Shown here: piece by piece, positions 20,391-37,060 of the stretch
Position numbering within the stretch: position 1 is the first letter of the stretch
Layout of the letters: each line of letters begins with the position of its first letter
Assembly (NCBI GenBank): GCA_017625835.1
Contig: JAGAKF010000103.1
Coordinates: 1-56,577, forward strand
Source of the DNA: Clostridia bacterium
Lineage (GTDB): Bacteria > Bacillota > Clostridia > Oscillospirales > Acutalibacteraceae
DNA length: 56,577 bases
Reading direction: 5' to 3'
Position numbers and translations under genes: made by a program
Notes under the pieces: generated by a model
Seen by the model: the letters and a program-made list of their open reading frames with translations, nothing else
The model's database searches: none
Told to the model about the DNA's origin: nothing

Positions 20391-20419
20391 TTGACATCAG
20401 ATAGAGTAAATGGTATAAT
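20391..20419 (+). promoter_or_regulatory. Consensus promoter of the radical SAM cluster
   Basis: A perfect TTGACA and a perfect TATAAT are separated by exactly 17 bp. The start is predicted near 20426, 37 nt before the first gene. It is the best sigma-A-type promoter in the window. Confidence 0.8.
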
Positions 20420-20462
20420 AACTTGATAAAATGCGCTAGTTTCGTCTGCGGAGGTGATTGTG

Positions 20463-22382
20463 TTGGAAAAGAAAAAAATATACCTTGTGCAAGCTAATTA
20501 TACTTATTCGGGAAGTGCACATCTTCCTTATGCCGTAGGTATGCTTCAGGCTTTCTCTATGAAAGATGAAAGAATAAACAATATCTATTCTTTTGAACAG
20601 ATTATTTTCGAACGCAAGTCACCTGAAGATATAATGTCTGTGATTTCGGATCCTGCAGTTATCGGCTTTTCCTGCTATGTGTGGAACTATGAATTCAACA
20701 AGAAAATTGCTTCAATGGTAAAGGAAAAATACCCCGAATGTAAAATAATCTTCGGCGGTCATCACGTGCGTGACGGTCATAGTCAGCTTGAAAAATACAG
20801 CTTTATCGATGTGCTTATTCACGGTGAGGGTGAGGAAGCCTTCCGTGATGTACTGCTTTGTTTTGCAGGTGAAAAGGATTTAAACGAGGTCAGAAATATT
20901 TCGTACAGAGACGGCGACAGCTTTGTTGATACACCGAAGGCTCCGTTCCTACTTCGTGATTATCCGTCGCCGTACATTGAGGGAGTTTTTGATTCGATAA
21001 TTGCCGACCATCCGCAGTATGAATTTATTGCTTTGCTTGAAACCAACCGAGGATGTCCCTATTCCTGCGCTTACTGCGATTGGGGTTGCCTTGCTTCAAA
21101 ATTACGTCTTTTCCCGATGGAGAGAATCCAAAAAGAGATTGACTGGCTTTGCGACAACAAAATTGTCGGCTGCGGTGGTACGGATTCCAATTTCGGTATC
21201 ATTGAGCGCGATGAAGAGATAACCGATATGCTCGTTGAAGCAAGAATGAAGAGGGGATACCCGAAAAAGTTTCAGACTTCGTATGCTAAAAACAGCAACG
21301 ACCGTGTATTCAGAATCGGCAAGAAATTTGAAGACAGCGGTATGAGCAAGGGCGTTACGATTTCCTATCAGACTATGTCACCGATTGCGGCAGAAAATGT
21401 TCTTCGTAAAAATATTCCCGTAGAAACATTTTCTCAGCTTATGAATAAATACAACGAGTGCGGAATACCGACCTATACCGAGCTTATTCTCGGCTTGCCC
21501 GGTGAGACCGTCGAAAGCCTGAAGTCAGGTATTGATGAGTTGTTAAGAGCAGGTCAGCACTATTCTCTGTATATCCATAACTGTGAGCTCCTCCCTTGCT
21601 CAACTATGGCTGATCCCGATTATATGAAAAAATTCGGAATTTCCGCAACGAAGCTTCCGCTTAACGAACCTCATCGCGAAGCAGGGGCGGATGACGGGGT
21701 GGCTGAATTTTCACACCTTGTAACGAAAACTTATTCAATGACGAATACGGACTGGATTGAGATGAATGTTTTTTCATATTTTGTCCAGAGTTTTCATCAT
21801 CTCGGACTTTTGCGATTCGTTGCACTTTATTTATACAATTCTCTTTCAGTAAGCTACAAGGATTTTTATTCTTCTCTTATAGATTTCTTTAATAATAACC
21901 CCGAAACCGTTGCAGGAAAAGCGATGAAGCTTGTGGAAGAAAAGCTTCACGGTGTGATTGAAAAAAGCGTTTCGATTACTCAGGCGGATTATCGCTTCGG
22001 CAGTGTCGAATGGCCGTTGGAGGAGCTTGTTTTCCTTATGACGGTTTATGAGCGAGACCGTTTCTACGAAGAGATAAAGCCTTTAGTGTACAGCTTTATC
22101 AGCGATAAAGTCTTTGCGGACGAGCTTCTGGAATATCAGAAATTCCTGATAAAATATCCCGAGATCTCCTGCGAAGAGAAATGTTTCAATTATGATTTCC
22201 CTTCGTACTTTGAAACTGTGCTTAATTCCGATAACGCAGATTTGGAAGAAAAGGAAATCAAGCTTGTTTTGGACAAGAAAGGCTTTCCACTCTCGTGGGA
22301 AGACTATGCTCGTTTCGTAGTGTGGTACGGCAGAAAATCAGGAAGCAATTTTTATAAATTCAGAAAGGAAGTAAAGCTGTGA
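20463..22382 (+). CDS. B12-binding-domain radical SAM enzyme, paralogue 1
   Basis: 639 residues. The N-terminal 150 residues resemble a cobalamin-binding Rossmann domain ('PAVIGFSCYVWNYEFNKKI', 'GGHHVRDGHSQLEKYSFIDV', 'LIHGEGEEAF'). The radical SAM core carries the cluster motif Cys198-x3-Cys202-x2-Cys205 in 'ETNRGCPYSCAYCDWG', with 'ELILGLPGET' as a later SAM-barrel motif. A C-terminal region of about 230 residues contains a helical part and ends near 'FVVWYGRKSGSNF'. The likely chemistry is a SAM-dependent radical reaction, perhaps methylation; the substrate is unknown. I start at TTG 20463, 8 bp after GGAGG; the GTG at 20454 overlaps that site. It is followed by two paralogues. Confidence 0.85.
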   Translation: MEKKKIYLVQANYTYSGSAHLPYAVGMLQAFSMKDERINNIYSFEQIIFERKSPEDIMSVISDPAVIGFSCYVWNYEFNKKIASMVKEKYPECKIIFGGHHVRDGHSQLEKYSFIDVLIHGEGEEAFRDVLLCFAGEKDLNEVRNISYRDGDSFVDTPKAPFLLRDYPSPYIEGVFDSIIADHPQYEFIALLETNRGCPYSCAYCDWGCLASKLRLFPMERIQKEIDWLCDNKIVGCGGTDSNFGIIERDEEITDMLVEARMKRGYPKKFQTSYAKNSNDRVFRIGKKFEDSGMSKGVTISYQTMSPIAAENVLRKNIPVETFSQLMNKYNECGIPTYTELILGLPGETVESLKSGIDELLRAGQHYSLYIHNCELLPCSTMADPDYMKKFGISATKLPLNEPHREAGADDGVAEFSHLVTKTYSMTNTDWIEMNVFSYFVQSFHHLGLLRFVALYLYNSLSVSYKDFYSSLIDFFNNNPETVAGKAMKLVEEKLHGVIEKSVSITQADYRFGSVEWPLEELVFLMTVYERDRFYEEIKPLVYSFISDKVFADELLEYQKFLIKYPEISCEEKCFNYDFPSYFETVLNSDNADLEEKEIKLVLDKKGFPLSWEDYARFVVWYGRKSGSNFYKFRKEVKL

Positions 22383-24307
22383 AAAACGTCTATTTTGTCC
22401 AGACAAACTCTGTTTTCGGCTCCGGTGTGAAGTCGGCTTATCTTCCTTATTCAATCGGTACGATTGCCGCATATGCGTGGGCAGATGAGAGGATCAGAAG
22501 TGAATACTGCCTTAAGAAGTTTATCTTTATGCGTGAAGATCCGCAGAAAATTGTCGACGGTATGGAAAATCCGTATCTCGTCGGGCTTTCCTGCTATGTA
22601 TGGAGTATGGAGTTCAATAAGGTTCTTGCGCAGAAGATTAAAGAGAAATATCCCGAGTGCTTCATTTTAATGGGCGGACACAGTATTTCACCCGATGCTG
22701 CAGAAATGGAGAAATATCCTTATATAGATTTCCTTACTCACGGCGAGGGTGAAGTGCCGACGAAAGAACTGTTGCTTGCGCTTTGTGAAGACTCTCCTCT
22801 TGAAAATGTAAACGGACTTTCTTTCAGAAAAAACGGTGAGGTTATAACTACTTCACCTGCACCCGTATGCGATATTTCGGATTTTCCGTCACCGTATCTT
22901 GAAGGATATTTCGACGAAATCCTTGAAGACACAAGTATAAAATATTCGGTTATCTGGGAAACAAACCGCGGTTGTCCGAACCGCTGTGCTTACTGTGACT
23001 GGGGTGTGCTCAAGTCAAAAGTACGAATGTTTCCGATGGAAAGGCTGAAAGCCGAAATCGAATGGATGGCAAAGAACAAAATCGAATACATCTACTGCAG
23101 TGATGCGAACTTTGCACTTTTTGACCGTGATGAGGAGATAACAGACCTTATGATAGAGTCAAAAAGAAAGACGGGTTATCCCGAAAAGTTCAAAACGAAT
23201 TTCACAAAAAACAGAGATGAATTCGTTTTCAAACTCAGCTGTAAAATGTTTGACGAGGGCTTGGGAAAATCACCGACGCTTTCGTTCCAGACGATGTCAC
23301 CGGAGGCTCTTAAAAATATCGGCAGAACAAATATGAGCCTTGAACATTTCAAGAATCTTATGCAGATGTATACGAACAGGGGAATAATGGCTTATTCCGA
23401 GCTGATTCTCGGTCTGCCGGGCGAAACTTATGAAAGCTTTTCCCAAGGAATTGCAACTCTTTTTGAGTGCGGACAGCATAAGAGCGTAATTGTTTACCCG
23501 TGCGAACTTCTTCCGAATTCTCAGCTCGGAAGCAGGGAGTCGGTTGAAAAATACAAAATTGAAGTATGCCGTACTGAATTCAGACAGCACCATTCCGCTG
23601 TGGATAACAACGCCGTCAGGGAGTACAGCGACAATATTATTTCAACTTACTCAATGAATCTTGAGGACTGGAAAAAGTCTTATATCTTCGCGCTTTATGC
23701 GCAGGGACTGCACACAATGTGCCTTACGATGATGATTGCAGTTTATCTGTATAACGAAAAAGGTGTGGGATATAAAGATTTCTATGAGGGACTTATTGAA
23801 TGGAGCAAGAATAATCCCGATACGTTGTGCGGTGAGCTTTACAGCGAGTGTGTGAAGTTTGTTGACGACGTAATTGACGGCGAGGATTCATTCAAAAGTG
23901 TGTTCGACGGTTTCGGTAAAACTACATGGGGATTTGACGAATATCTCTTTATGAAAGGTGCCGTAAACCCCGAAAAGTTTTATTCTGAAATCAGAGAATA
24001 TATCAAGCTCTATTCTTCAGACAGCGAGATAACAGATAATCTTATCAGATACCAAAGCGGTATAATTAAGAAGATGAATATGACAAAGCTTGATATTGAG
24101 CTTGAATACGACTTTGAATCGTATTTTGATGCGATTCTTAATAACAACTATATTCCTCTTGAAAAACGCAGAAACACCGTCACGGTCACGGAGGAAAAAC
24201 CTGTTGCTACGATTGATGAGTATGCAAGAGAGTACGTCTGGTACGGCAGACGTGATGATGCACCCGTTTATTCCGCAAAGAGGAACAATCTTAAAGTAAC
24301 TTATTAA
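22379..24307 (+). CDS. B12-binding-domain radical SAM enzyme, paralogue 2
   Basis: 642 residues, same layout as its neighbours: the B12-binding-like domain ('SCYVWSMEFNKVLAQKIKEK', 'MGGHSISPDAAEMEKYPYID'), the radical SAM cluster Cys199-x3-Cys203-x2-Cys206 in 'ETNRGCPNRCAYCDWG', 'SDANFALFDRDEEITDL' and 'ELILGLPGETYESF', and the shared tail ending 'EYVWYGRRDDAPVYS'. The GTG start overlaps the previous stop codon (GTGA), so the two are translationally coupled. It is clearly homologous to the genes on both sides but not a recent copy, since the sequences differ throughout. The substrate is unknown. It is expected to be cytoplasmic. Confidence 0.85.
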   Translation: MKNVYFVQTNSVFGSGVKSAYLPYSIGTIAAYAWADERIRSEYCLKKFIFMREDPQKIVDGMENPYLVGLSCYVWSMEFNKVLAQKIKEKYPECFILMGGHSISPDAAEMEKYPYIDFLTHGEGEVPTKELLLALCEDSPLENVNGLSFRKNGEVITTSPAPVCDISDFPSPYLEGYFDEILEDTSIKYSVIWETNRGCPNRCAYCDWGVLKSKVRMFPMERLKAEIEWMAKNKIEYIYCSDANFALFDRDEEITDLMIESKRKTGYPEKFKTNFTKNRDEFVFKLSCKMFDEGLGKSPTLSFQTMSPEALKNIGRTNMSLEHFKNLMQMYTNRGIMAYSELILGLPGETYESFSQGIATLFECGQHKSVIVYPCELLPNSQLGSRESVEKYKIEVCRTEFRQHHSAVDNNAVREYSDNIISTYSMNLEDWKKSYIFALYAQGLHTMCLTMMIAVYLYNEKGVGYKDFYEGLIEWSKNNPDTLCGELYSECVKFVDDVIDGEDSFKSVFDGFGKTTWGFDEYLFMKGAVNPEKFYSEIREYIKLYSSDSEITDNLIRYQSGIIKKMNMTKLDIELEYDFESYFDAILNNNYIPLEKRRNTVTVTEEKPVATIDEYAREYVWYGRRDDAPVYSAKRNNLKVTY

Positions 24308-24323
24308 AAAAGGAGGATGTGCC

Positions 24324-26261
24324 GTGAAAAAGATATATTTTGTTCAGGCAGGGTTTGCTTTTGATAAATCTGTTTATCTGCCGTATGCAACAGGTTGCCT
24401 TGCGGCATATTCGTTACAGTTTGAAGATTTCAGGTCACAGTATGAACTCGGCGGATTCTTCTATAAAAGGGAGAAAACGGACGATATTCTCAACCGTATG
24501 AAAAATCCTGCTGTAGTAGCTTTTTCAAACTATGCCTGGAATGTTGAGTTCAATAAAGCCCTTGCCCGTAAGGTGAAAGAAAAATATCCTGAATGTATAA
24601 TTGTTTACGGTGGACACAGTGTAAGAAATGACAGCGCTGAGCTTCTTGAAGAATGCGGTTTTATTGATTATCTTATCTTCGGTGAGGGTGAAGAGCCTTT
24701 TTACAATCTTCTTATGGCTCTTGCGAACTCAACTGATTTAGAAGAAGTTGAAAATATTGCCTACCGCAAAAACGGTGCGGTAGTGTGTACAAACAGAAGC
24801 ACCTGCAAGGATATATCAGAGTATCCTTCGCCTTATCTTACAGGTCTTTTCGATCCGATCGTTAAAACTGAAACAGTAGAGCTTCTTTCAGTAATCGAAA
24901 CGAACAGAGGCTGCCCGTATAAATGCGCTTATTGCGATTGGAGTGCCAAGAGTAAGGTGCGTTTCTTCCCGATGGAAAAAATCAAGGGCGAGCTTAAATG
25001 GCTTTCGGACAACAAGATTGAATACTGCTTCTGTGCTGATGCCAATTTCGGTATGTTCAAGCGCGACATCGAGGTAGCCGATTACTGCATAGAACTCAAA
25101 AAATCAACAGGTTATCCGGATGTATTCCGTCCTTGTTACGCTAAAGAAAACGACGAGAATGTCTTTGAAATCTGTTCAAAATTCAATGAATACCATATCG
25201 ACAAGGGTGCAACGATGGCATATCAGAGCCTGTGCGAAGATGCCCTTTCGAATGTAAACAGAAGCAATCTGACAATGGAACATTTTGCTGATATTGTAAA
25301 AAAATATAATCAGGCTAAAATTCCGACTTATTCCGAGCTTATTCTTGGTCTGCCGGGCGAGACTTATGATTCGTTCTGCGACGGACTTTGCAAGCTGCTT
25401 GAAGCAGGTCAGCATAATTCAGTGAGCGTTTATCACTGCGAAGTTTTGCCGAACTCTATAATGGGAAGTAAGGAATACATCGAAAAGTATTCAATAAAAT
25501 CAAATAAAGTAAAGTTCAATCATATTCACAGTGCGGAGACACAGGAGGAAGTGTCCGAGTATTCTGAAATTGTAATGGGTACAAGCACTATGACGAAGGA
25601 GATGTGGATTAAATCAAATCTCTTTTCTGTTACTCTCCAGTGTTTCCACAGCCTCGGTCTTTTAAGATGCTTTGCGCTTTATGCGCACTACGAAAAGGGT
25701 ATGAGCTACCGCGAATTTTACGATAAACTGTTCAAATTCGTGATCAGTAATCCCGAGACAGTATTCGGCAAGGTTCTGGCACGGTATGAGGATAGGCTGA
25801 CTCATTCGCTTGAGGGGGATTGGAACTATCATAACCCTGTTTTCGGAAATATTGTCTGGTTTTTCGAAGAGGGAATGTTCCTCGAGTGTATGTATAACGA
25901 TGAAAAGTTTGATGAGGAAATTTTACCGTTCCTTGTTTCTCTTGATATTGAACCCGAAATCTTTAACGAACTGAAAAAATATCAGAAAGCCGTTCTTCGC
26001 CGTCCGAATAAAAACGGAGAACAGCTTGAACTTAACTATAATTTTACGGAATATTTTGATTCAATCTATGCAGGTGAATATAAACCGCTTGAAAAATGCC
26101 CTGTAAACCTTGATTTTGCCGAAAACCGCGTTTTTGAAGATTGGTACTCCTTTGCTAAAAACATCGTCTGGTTCGGCAGAAGAAAGGGTGCTACGATGTA
26201 TACCTCTGATAAATCAATGTACAGCATTGAGAAAAAGGAGGAGGCCACTTATGAATCGTAA
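24324..26261 (+). CDS. B12-binding-domain radical SAM enzyme, paralogue 3
   Basis: 645 residues with the same architecture. The cobalamin-binding-like N-terminus has 'VAFSNYAWNVEFNKALARKV' and 'YGGHSVRNDSAELLEECGFI'; the cluster motif is Cys197-x3-Cys201-x2-Cys204 in 'ETNRGCPYKCAYCDWS'; 'ADANFGMFKRDIEVADY' and 'ELILGLPGETYDSF' follow; and the tail ends 'NIVWFGRRKGATMYTS'. GGAGG lies about 9 bp before the GTG start. Its last 11 bp overlap the next gene, a YdcF-like membrane protein. No precursor peptide gene is visible in the cluster. Confidence 0.85.
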   Translation: MKKIYFVQAGFAFDKSVYLPYATGCLAAYSLQFEDFRSQYELGGFFYKREKTDDILNRMKNPAVVAFSNYAWNVEFNKALARKVKEKYPECIIVYGGHSVRNDSAELLEECGFIDYLIFGEGEEPFYNLLMALANSTDLEEVENIAYRKNGAVVCTNRSTCKDISEYPSPYLTGLFDPIVKTETVELLSVIETNRGCPYKCAYCDWSAKSKVRFFPMEKIKGELKWLSDNKIEYCFCADANFGMFKRDIEVADYCIELKKSTGYPDVFRPCYAKENDENVFEICSKFNEYHIDKGATMAYQSLCEDALSNVNRSNLTMEHFADIVKKYNQAKIPTYSELILGLPGETYDSFCDGLCKLLEAGQHNSVSVYHCEVLPNSIMGSKEYIEKYSIKSNKVKFNHIHSAETQEEVSEYSEIVMGTSTMTKEMWIKSNLFSVTLQCFHSLGLLRCFALYAHYEKGMSYREFYDKLFKFVISNPETVFGKVLARYEDRLTHSLEGDWNYHNPVFGNIVWFFEEGMFLECMYNDEKFDEEILPFLVSLDIEPEIFNELKKYQKAVLRRPNKNGEQLELNYNFTEYFDSIYAGEYKPLEKCPVNLDFAENRVFEDWYSFAKNIVWFGRRKGATMYTSDKSMYSIEKKEEATYES

Positions 26262-27015
26262 ACTTCGCATAGCCTTGCTTGTGTTTTTTGATTTAATGGC
26301 AATGTGGTTTATTATTCCGGTTGCTTTCAGCAGAATTGTGAATATCGGCAATATAACGGGTATAGTGTTGTTCGAATCTTTGTTTTTGTTGACTTATTTT
26401 TCGGAGAAGGTTCTGAATTTTATCAAGAAAATGCGCACAAAAAAGTCCGGAAAGATTATCACAAATTTAGCTTGTATTGCATTGGTTGCTGTGTTCCTTC
26501 TTGCAACGACTGAAACAGCTTTGATGGTTGGTGCTGCAGCAAAAGATCCTGAACCGTCCGCGACTGTGGTTGTGTTGGGCTGCCGTGTTTATGGTGAAAG
26601 ACCGAGCAGAATGATGGTTGCTAGACTTAAGGCGGCGCAGAAGTATCTGGAAGAAAATCCTGAATCAGCCTGCATACTTTCAGGTGGTCAGGGCGAGGAT
26701 GAGGATATATCCGAAGCAGAATGTATGTACAGATATCTTGTTGCAAACGGTATCTCACCCGACAGGCTTTATAAAGAGGACAAGTCGACATCAACCCGGG
26801 AAAACCTTCTTTTCTCCAAAGAGATAATCGAGAGAGAAGGATTGAACAAAAGTATTGCCATTGCAACAAATGAATTCCACGAATACAGAGCGCAGAGAAT
26901 TGCCTCGTCTCTTGGATTTGAAAGCGGTGCAGTTTCGGGCAAGACAGAAATATGGGTAGTTCCTACATATCACATCAGGGAGCTCTACGGCATTCTTTAC
27001 GAATGGATAGTATAA
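26251..27015 (+). CDS. YdcF/SanA-like (DUF218) membrane protein
   Basis: 254 residues. Three hydrophobic segments (about 6-29, 32-52, 69-92) precede a DUF218 domain: 'ATVVVLGCRVYGERPSRMMVARLKAA', then 'ACILSGGQGEDEDISEAECM', 'LYKEDKSTSTRENLLFS' and 'IAIATNEFHEYRA'. DUF218 proteins (YdcF, SanA, ElyC) act near the cell envelope, often linked to peptidoglycan or undecaprenyl-lipid metabolism; YdcF binds SAM in vitro. The ATG follows GGAGGAGG, which lies inside the third radical SAM gene, and the 11-bp overlap suggests coupled translation. It closes the cluster before a terminator. Confidence 0.85.
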   Translation: MNRKLRIALLVFFDLMAMWFIIPVAFSRIVNIGNITGIVLFESLFLLTYFSEKVLNFIKKMRTKKSGKIITNLACIALVAVFLLATTETALMVGAAAKDPEPSATVVVLGCRVYGERPSRMMVARLKAAQKYLEENPESACILSGGQGEDEDISEAECMYRYLVANGISPDRLYKEDKSTSTRENLLFSKEIIEREGLNKSIAIATNEFHEYRAQRIASSLGFESGAVSGKTEIWVVPTYHIRELYGILYEWIV

Positions 27016-27018
27016 AAA

Positions 27019-27057
27019 ACGGAGATACTTCAGTCAAGAAGTATCTCCATATTTTTT
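27019..27057. terminator. Bidirectional intrinsic terminator
   Basis: ggagatactt (27021-27030) pairs with aagtatctcc (27039-27048), followed by atatttttt. On the minus strand it follows the GtrA gene with a TTTTTTATAC tail. Confidence 0.85.
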
Positions 27058-27577
27058 AGCTTTTATATGCCCAGAATTTATTAACAGCAAAGTTAATCGG
27101 TGTAAGTATCAATACCGTAATAACAGAAGCAATCGGTTCCGCAATCCATTCGTAAACGGGTGTGTTATTTCCTTTTGCAATAAGGCTGTTTTCAATCGCA
27201 GGGATGATTCCTGTAAGGTTCAACGCCTCAATCCAGGATTCTGTAAATCTCGAAAGTTTTACGACATCAAGGAAAAACCAGAGAAGTAAACCTGAAAGAA
27301 GTACGCCCGTAATTGCATAAACGAAGTACAGTTTAAGGAAAACTTTCCACCATACTCTTTGTTCATTTTCTTCCTTCCTGAAAATAACTGTTCCGTTAAT
27401 AATGTAAGAAGAAACAACGCTCGCGGAAAAAGCAATAAAGTTGCAAAGTATGGTGTTTAATCCGAATGAAGAGCAGAAAGTGAAAACTACCTGCCTTAAA
27501 AGAAAGTTCAGCGCACCGACCGTAAAAAAGAGGATGAACTGAACTGAAGTTTTGTTGTTTGATTTTTTATTAGTCAT
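27056..27577 (-). CDS. GtrA-like small membrane protein
   Basis: 173 residues with four hydrophobic helices. 'QFILFFTVGALNFLLRQVVF', 'NFIAFSASVVSSYIINGTVIF' and the closing 'PINFAVNKFWAYKS' are the hallmarks of GtrA (PF04138), proteins often linked to moving undecaprenyl-phosphate-bound sugars across the membrane. It carries an extra loop between helices 3 and 4. The ATG at 27577 follows AAGGAT, 10 bp after the upstream stop codon. It is the last gene of an operon with a small multidrug-export-like protein and a Nudix fusion protein. Confidence 0.85.
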   Translation of the reverse strand: MTNKKSNNKTSVQFILFFTVGALNFLLRQVVFTFCSSFGLNTILCNFIAFSASVVSSYIINGTVIFRKEENEQRVWWKVFLKLYFVYAITGVLLSGLLLWFFLDVVKLSRFTESWIEALNLTGIIPAIENSLIAKGNNTPVYEWIAEPIASVITVLILTPINFAVNKFWAYKS

Positions 27578-27587
27578 ATGAAAATCC

Positions 27588-28079
27588 TTAAGCAAAAAGT
27601 CCGAAAGAAATTCCGCCGACGATAAGCCCTGCGATAAGAACACCTAAAGTGATTGCAGGCATTGCACGGCGCATACGAAGGTCCATAAGTGCGGCAACAA
27701 GAGCACCTGTCCATCCGCCTGTACCGGGAAGGGGAACTGCAACAAGAACAAGAAGACCCCAGAATCCGTATTTTTCTATTTTTCCGCGATGCTTTTCTGC
27801 CTTGGCTTCCATTTTTGCGACAATTCTTGCGGTGTGCTTCCATTTTCTCATCCAGTCGAAAATCTTGCGGATGAAAAGAAGAATAAACGGCATCGGAAGC
27901 ATGTTTCCGACAAAGCAGAAAAAGAAAGCGCTCCATACATTCATTTCAAGCAAACGGGCGGCAATCAGACCGCCGCGAAGCTCAAGTATCGGCAAAACTG
28001 AGATAACAAAAACCGTGAGCTCTTTCGGAATTGTAGTTCCGAATAAAGTGACAAGAAAATCAACTATACTGTCGACCAT
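27588..28079 (-). CDS. Small multidrug-export-like membrane protein (COG2426)
   Basis: 163 residues. 'PKELTVFVISVLPILELRGGLIAARLLEM' and 'KYGFWGLLVLVAVPLPGTGGWTGALVAAL' are the two defining motifs of the Sm_multidrug_ex family (PF06695), which has the same E-L-R-G and P-x-P-G-T-G pattern as DedA-like half-transporters. The protein has about four transmembrane helices and re-entrant loops. The name reflects an old annotation; the function is not proven. It lies in the middle of an operon (6 bp after the Nudix gene). Confidence 0.85.
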   Translation of the reverse strand: MVDSIVDFLVTLFGTTIPKELTVFVISVLPILELRGGLIAARLLEMNVWSAFFFCFVGNMLPMPFILLFIRKIFDWMRKWKHTARIVAKMEAKAEKHRGKIEKYGFWGLLVLVAVPLPGTGGWTGALVAALMDLRMRRAMPAITLGVLIAGLIVGGISFGLFA

Positions 28080-36993: not shown

Positions 36994-37021
36994 TTGACAG
37001 TGATACTAAAAGTATTATAAT
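36994..37021 (+). promoter_or_regulatory. Promoter of the marR-ABC exporter operon
   Basis: Perfect TTGACA and TATAAT separated by 16 bp. The spacer contains a small inverted repeat (atact/agtat, 37003-37015). Confidence 0.75.
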
Positions 37022-37043: not shown

Positions 37044-37060
37044 TTGTCGGAGGGATGATT

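Follow-up and report, generated by a model that had tools for sequence, protein, structure and literature searches.

What would a bacterium do with three cobalamin-dependent radical enzymes encoded in a row? This question is raised by a 56,577-nucleotide stretch of Clostridia bacterium DNA (GCA_017625835.1, contig JAGAKF010000103.1; hereafter the window), which comes from a metagenome-assembled genome (MAG) of 77% completeness. Three open reading frames (ORFs) of 639–645 residues, here called A, B, and C, lie head to tail with a 254-residue DUF218 (YdcF-like) gene at positions 20463–27015. A first-pass annotation made from the sequence alone had placed these four genes, and they were all found there with Pfam domains above the gathering score. 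The operon is real and intact, and its genes belong to a larger set with strong linkage. The explanation that we favor, with modest confidence, is that A–C are TokK-type enzymes, probably C-methyltransferases, and belong to a five-member set (A–E) acting on a sugar component of a cell-surface glycan or glycolipid.

Each of A, B, and C passed the Pfam gathering score for the B12-binding and Radical_SAM (S-adenosylmethionine, SAM) domains. Their layout was that of TokK, composed of a Rossmann B12 domain, a radical SAM barrel, and a TokK-like C-terminal domain, and the closest two folds were TokK and CysS. The CX3CX2C motif and the equivalents of TokK Trp76 and Trp215 are all kept in A–C, and the Cys and Trp columns of CX3CX2C and the Trp76 equivalent did not vary in any of the 24 aligned sequences. 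In TokK, Trp76 sits under the cobalt (PMC9692996, PMC13331322), and a role of Trp215 is also described (PMC9692996). The three proteins further share a C-terminal VW[YF]GR motif, of which the Trp was invariant in the same number of sequences, A–C included; both shared motifs had been pointed out beforehand. All three proteins belong to the TokK-type (class 1) cobalamin-dependent radical SAM enzymes. Among the NCBIfam models, the KedN5 family (NF033712) gave the best match to each protein (E-values from 4e-73 to 3e-78), but its cut-off of 700 bits was missed (263.6, 258.0, and 246.7 bits for A, B, and C), and the match was limited to the region from residues 10–20 through 407–497.

These enzymes are most likely C-methyltransferases, with a sugar as the presumed substrate. 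It is improbable that they instead change the same surface sugar without methylation, by dehydration, epimerization, ring contraction, or bond formation, as both of the closest folds, TokK and CysS, belong to methyltransferases, and as A–C keep the Trp beneath the cobalt that is found in TokK and probably also in CysS. Maturation of a ribosomal peptide was also considered, as weak superfamily matches to radical SAM models of ribosomally synthesized and post-translationally modified peptides (RiPPs) were obtained. The TIGR03975 model scored A–C at 43.9, 67.5, and 59.4 bits against a cut-off of 281.85, and TokK and CysS were far better matches. The RiPP pathway was rejected on these scores and is very improbable; the doubt previously expressed about such a role was thus justified, with the limit that short precursor ORFs were not searched for.

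The relationship among A, B, and C was examined using relatives collected from genome contigs. One scan gave 35 loci, 32 of which hold near full-length relatives, and their hosts are nearly all Clostridia or Oscillospiraceae MAGs, mostly from ruminant guts. Three loci with distant partial matches (L042–L044) were excluded from the neighborhood and tree counts, L052, L054, and L055 were excluded from the tree as repeats of other loci, and genes cut by or lying past contig ends were counted as missing. Three of the 109 TokK-type rows above 300 bits had 550 residues or fewer and were likewise excluded from the tree. A, B, and C were located in three distant subfamilies with supports of 100/99, 100/99, and 100/98 (120-row tree; a careful 69-row tree, which is a chosen subset of the former), where each clusters tightly with its own same-genus orthologues. 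Two further subfamilies were recognized, D, supported at 97/96, and E, the sister of C with 100/99. The deep branching among the subfamilies was left open in both trees, in which several rows are long-branched. As A shares 40% identity with B and 42% with C, they are not recent duplicates, consistent with the divergence that had been noticed at first sight; their separate, supported subfamilies indicate no local triplication, and this simple origin was rejected. A separate step for each enzyme, as had also been supposed, is probable in view of these subfamilies and of the A-B-C order found in other genomes of the genus. Five TokK-type genes were detected in the window genome at an E-value of 1e-60, namely A, B, and C in the operon and D and E on another contig (C102). 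The genome hence carries one member each of A–E, with the reserve that D splits into two subclades; its D groups with those of L022 and L034 and with one of the two D rows of L023, and not with that of L018.

Evidence for the substrate comes from the genes that accompany TokK-type genes. A glycosyltransferase family 2 (GT2) protein linked to them is homologous to polyprenyl-phosphate glycosyltransferases of the dolichol-phosphate-mannose synthase (DPMS)/ArnC type, matching the PDB entry 5mlz at 4e-15 over residues 5–235 of 244 and ArnC (9hwj) at 3.8e-10. TokK-type genes were detected in 22 of 200 genomes of the family at 1–10 copies each, where six candidates at most were scored per genome. 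This GT2 was present in 20 of the 22 and in none of the other 178 (p = 1.4e-25, without kinship correction; kinship inflates the p values, and the GT2 profile was built from TokK-linked copies). The link persisted at the genus level (15/16 versus 0/119), and 19 of the 20 genomes have a GT2 gene no farther than 5 kb from a TokK-type gene, the exception (G016) being a fragmented MAG. A draw of 394 genomes from the order, in which three candidates per genome were scored against the TokK profile, yielded TokK-type genes in two genomes (G000 and G114), and the GT2 was detected in these two alone. The outcome fits the link without being independent evidence for it, because the family draw already contained both genomes. 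Separately, three genomes of the family (G089, G190, and G209) hold ten TokK-type paralogues each, and first-look candidates numbered up to 26 (G118).

This linkage sharpens the earlier guess of an envelope function, which stands by way of the polyprenyl-phosphate glycosylation genes; a lipid or peptidoglycan substrate is not favored over a sugar. The remark that no glycosyltransferase is adjacent holds at the operon itself, but one adjoins D and E in the window genome as well as genes of subfamilies A, B, and C at the loci L018, L023, and L030. The two former loci each contain A–E plus the glycosylation and sugar parts in one stretch of less than 22 kb, and L030 contains A, B, C, and E together. 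In the window genome the parts are dispersed: C102 contains D, E, the GT2 gene, and two radical SAM genes of about 610 codons, while contig C65 (L051) contains genes for a multi-transmembrane protein, two epimerase-type proteins, an HddA-like kinase, and a nucleotidyltransferase/phosphatase.

KedN5, the namesake of the best family model, presumably acts in a secreted small-molecule pathway. That the arrays likewise produce a secreted small molecule, resembling an aminoglycoside, a carbapenem, or an enediyne moiety, is an unlikely reading, although the arrays are patchy (22 of the 200 genomes), a Streptomyces relative adjoins adenylation-domain genes, and the nearest characterized relatives, TokK, ThnK, and CysS, are described in antibiotic pathways (PMC8992657). 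Against it, neither a carrier protein, an adenylation domain, nor a β-lactam-forming enzyme was detected in any of the 46 Pfam-scanned products, a selection taken from the operon and its flanks and from the arrays, and the DPMS-like GT2 together with a GT-C-like protein points to membrane glycan assembly. The structural alignment with TokK/ThnK, which act in carbapenem C6 methylation, gave 28% identity, and Pfam identified no β-lactam genes in the four-gene operon. A carbapenem pathway was rejected because carbapenam-forming genes are absent from this promoter–terminator unit (the remaining window was not annotated gene by gene). A protein of the plasmid locus L048 differs from A–C in lacking the C-terminal VW[YF]GR motif; it is labeled ThnK-like by homology (430 bits) and because this plasmid presumably carries the thienamycin cluster, the record being unannotated there. 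CysS, which forms the tert-butyl group of cystobactamid, gave 22% identity in the structural alignment, and its structures were solved with pantetheinylated arenes according to the entry titles. The Streptomyces relative (L050 6611–17773; Streptomyces sp. NBC_01546 plasmid) adjoins adenylation-domain proteins and an enduracididine hydroxylase, and this cluster is probably that of an uncharacterized peptide natural product.

The surface-sugar explanation was then weighed against modification of a lipid, in which the target of C-methylation would be the polyprenyl carrier or some other membrane lipid, and YdcF an envelope partner. In its favor, lipid-linked intermediates are implied by the DPMS-like GT2 and the GT-C-like protein, the locus holds YdcF as well as a GtrA-like protein, and ElyC, a DUF218 protein, is described as controlling a lipid-linked glycan (PMC8609368). 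Against it, none of the other arrays examined yielded YdcF, and the sugar kinases offer a further discrimination. They are of two types, HddA-like (approximately 325 residues) and FKP-like (approximately 820 residues, fucokinase/guanylyltransferase), assigned by length (above 500 residues as FKP-like) and including a 137-residue fragment at a locus end (L030). In the 120-row tree, loci with the HddA-like kinase contributed 37 TokK-type rows inside A–E and 1 outside, whereas those with the FKP-like kinase contributed 2 inside and 27 outside; 46 rows inside and 7 outside, including the outgroup rows L048–L050, belong to loci with no kinase in view. These loci are related, so that the counts are no test of independent events, but such a split is expected of sugar-specific enzymes. 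The sugar is preferred over the lipid as the substrate mainly because the TokK-type subfamilies switch with the kinase type, which a shared lipid does not explain, and we regard lipid modification as unlikely. The HddA-like kinase was also detected in 14 of the 22 TokK-type-positive genomes versus 4 of the 178 others, adjacent to the TokK-type genes in seven genomes. Inside the genus the ratio was 8/10 versus 2/8 (p = 0.054), and all six genomes with A-B-C have the kinase.

The identity of the sugar as a heptose is tentative; the module on C65 and in the arrays was compared with the GDP-D-glycero-D-manno-heptose pathway. HddA was the best NCBIfam model for the kinases of L051 and L015, and the GmhB phosphatase model (TIGR00213; cut-off 149.6) scored 150.4 bits in L015 and 131.2 bits in L051. 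The kinases reached only 129.7 (L051) and 138.9 bits (L015) against the HddA cut-off of 600, and GmhA (TIGR00441) matched 56 of the 200 family genomes at 1e-20 with none over the cut-off. The GmhA matches mostly span positions from about 41 to 154 only, and that of the window genome is partial, which makes the assignment tentative. The best two (G199 and G089), which are those whose neighbors were examined, have TokK-type genes no more than 2 kb away. The HddC model (NF049965) was dropped as a marker, as it matched all 18 genus genomes and all 14 controls, with none over the cut-off.

On the basis of homology, a GHMP sugar kinase, an HAD phosphatase, and a nucleotidyltransferase would generate a GDP-activated heptose-type sugar, which the DPMS-like GT2 would place onto polyprenyl phosphate. 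Cytosolic TokK-type enzymes would then abstract hydrogen from unactivated sugar carbons and add a methyl group from methylcobalamin by the two-SAM radical chemistry of TokK, acting on the activated or lipid-linked sugar before export. This step, in which each enzyme may have its own position or intermediate, is suggested by the fold, the kept catalytic residues, and the linkage. The lipid-linked sugar would finally be flipped, and a membrane enzyme of ten transmembrane segments, whose GT-C fold is assumed from that of a relative, may move it to an outer glycan. A similar chemistry is described for GenK and GenD1, which perform radical B12 C-methylation of unactivated sugar carbons in gentamicin (PMC4340712), a likeness of chemistry; their pathway yields a soluble antibiotic, whereas a lipid-linked glycan is proposed here.

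The results above establish the enzyme family and its fold, the conserved motifs, the division into subfamilies, and the linkage and co-occurrence of the genes; methylation, the substrate, and the order of steps are proposed. The kind of enzyme is known, and its setting, namely a surface sugar, a polyprenyl-phosphate pathway, and extensive sets of paralogues in gut Clostridia, seems to be new. Known TokK-type enzymes serve antibiotic biosynthesis, in which they act on a carrier-bound small molecule; here the fold is tied to polyprenyl-phosphate glycosylation in gut bacteria that have been little studied. No report of radical B12 chemistry on surface sugars or of these arrays was found among the titles and abstract openings covered by our searches. 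If C-methylation by these enzymes takes place on lipid-linked or nucleotide sugars, radical B12 methylation would extend to surface glycans, surface structure would become vitamin-dependent, and ready catalysts for sugar C-methylation would be at hand. The analysis also suggests testable functions for the linked GT2 and 10-transmembrane proteins, and A–E, the GT2, and the sugar module form a minimal set for reconstitution. More speculatively, gut Clostridia may have turned the TokK fold into a surface-sugar toolkit of up to ten paralogues per genome, in which the recurrent set A–E would attach several methyl groups by radical chemistry to the carbons of one heptose-type sugar for a polyprenyl-phosphate/GT-C pathway, and other subfamilies would do so to a fucose-type sugar. 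If so, a hypermethylated, branched-carbon sugar coat, previously undescribed, would result.

The features of the operon are listed in Table 1. The promoter-like site and the two-way hairpin enclose the four genes, so that the transcript probably contains only A, B, C, and YdcF. The perfect promoter consensus reported earlier was located, but it is one of two exact TTGACA-(16 to 18)-TATAAT sites in the window, against an expectation of 0.03 per window-sized sequence in simulation; the other, at 36994 (+), is directly 5′ of an ORF at 37055. The Shine-Dalgarno sequence of A is GGAGGTGAT at 20450–20458. Since the mechanically called GTG at 20454 falls within it, A probably starts at TTG 20463 or GTG 20460; the former, giving 639 residues, is most likely, and the latter is possible. 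A purine-rich, Shine-Dalgarno-like stretch also precedes B, C, and YdcF. In the whole window no Rfam family, and so no cobalamin riboswitch, reached the gathering threshold, and ARAGORN detected no tRNA, and C and YdcF gave no PHROGs match at 0.001.

Table 1. Positions of the operon features and of the convergent neighbor in the window.
Feature	Position	Strand	Basis	Remark
Promoter-like site TTGACA-17-TATAAT	20391–20419	+	12/12 consensus positions	TG 5′ of the −10 element
Gene A, TokK-type cobalamin-dependent radical SAM, subfamily A	20463–22382	+	Pfam, trees	639 residues
Trp of CYVW in A (TokK Trp76 equivalent)	20682–20684	+	Sequence comparison	
CX3CX2C of A	21054–21077	+	Sequence comparison	Followed by DW (TokK Trp215 equivalent)
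Gene B, TokK-type, subfamily B	22379–24307	+	Pfam, trees	4-base overlap with the end of A
CX3CX2C of B	22973–22996	+		Trp76 equivalent at 22601–22603
Gene C, TokK-type, subfamily C	24324–26261	+	Pfam, trees	16-base gap after B
CX3CX2C of C	24912–24935	+		Trp76 equivalent at 24537–24539
DUF218 (YdcF/ElyC-like) gene	26251–27015	+	PF02698, 89.9 bits (gathering score 27.6)	11-base overlap with C
Bidirectional intrinsic-terminator-like hairpin	27019–27050	both	Listed on both strands	At the operon end
GtrA/DPMS transmembrane-domain protein	27059–27643	−	PF04138	Convergent with the operon

TokK-type genes were detected in 10 of 18 genomes of the genus. A-B-C-YdcF occurs with the same flanks in four other genomes (L010–L013 in G004, G013, G009, and G012), so that the A-B-C order is found at the same site in five, and the sixth (G016) is consistent across a contig break: an A fragment adjoins YetF at one contig end (L081), while B-C lies at another (L053), where a polymerase IV-like gene follows C in place of YdcF. 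The three proteins are thus neither in unrelated families nor in an order unique to this genome. The supposed fixed arrangement of three paralogues plus YdcF holds for the A-B-C clades and order, but YdcF accompanies them in five same-genus loci only. In G014 and G001, the YetF-NfeD-SPFH backbone lacks A-B-C alongside; because YetF genomes without A-B-C can retain the backbone, the operon was gained or lost at this site.

The fourth protein has approximately three hydrophobic N-terminal segments by hydropathy, and PF02698 and N-terminal membrane segments are common to it and ElyC/YdcF. It does not reach the ElyC equivalog (NF007794), with 20 bits against a cut-off of 205, and its profile had no match at 0.01 among PDB sequences. 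As it is present at five of six A-B-C loci, all in one genus, and phmmer gave no match at 1e-5 in the other arrays (L014–L041 and L045), YdcF is a clade-specific extra and accessory at most. ElyC is described as an inhibitor of the formation of phosphoglyceride-linked enterobacterial common antigen (PMC8609368). It is therefore a fair guess that YdcF regulates lipid-linked glycan assembly; it may act similarly as a membrane-side regulator or accessory. The GtrA-like cluster was identified at all of the five same-genus loci except L013, and its protein is a possible flippase for polyprenyl-phosphate sugars.

Several neighboring genes were also observed. A second family of radical SAM proteins of about 610 residues, with a long N-terminal part and a weak or no B12-binding signal, accompanies TokK-type arrays and the GT2; its genes lie at L045 9578–11392 and 12137–13978 (contig C102), with similar ones in L015, L016, and L027, and the three proteins scanned matched no NCBIfam model at the cut-off. 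An amine-oxidase-like flavoprotein and a 2Fe-2S protein are encoded in the arrays at L014 9248–11891, L021 17665–20264, and L059 10905–13477 (families assigned from L014 only), adjoining the GT2 gene in L014 and L021; they may serve as an electron supply or in further sugar oxidation. Outside the Clostridia, the plasmid p2 of Azospirillum sp. TSA2s (L049 1–10949) contains a TokK-type gene among those of an epimerase, a GT61 glycosyltransferase, a transketolase, and a methyltransferase, which suggests a glycan role in another phylum.
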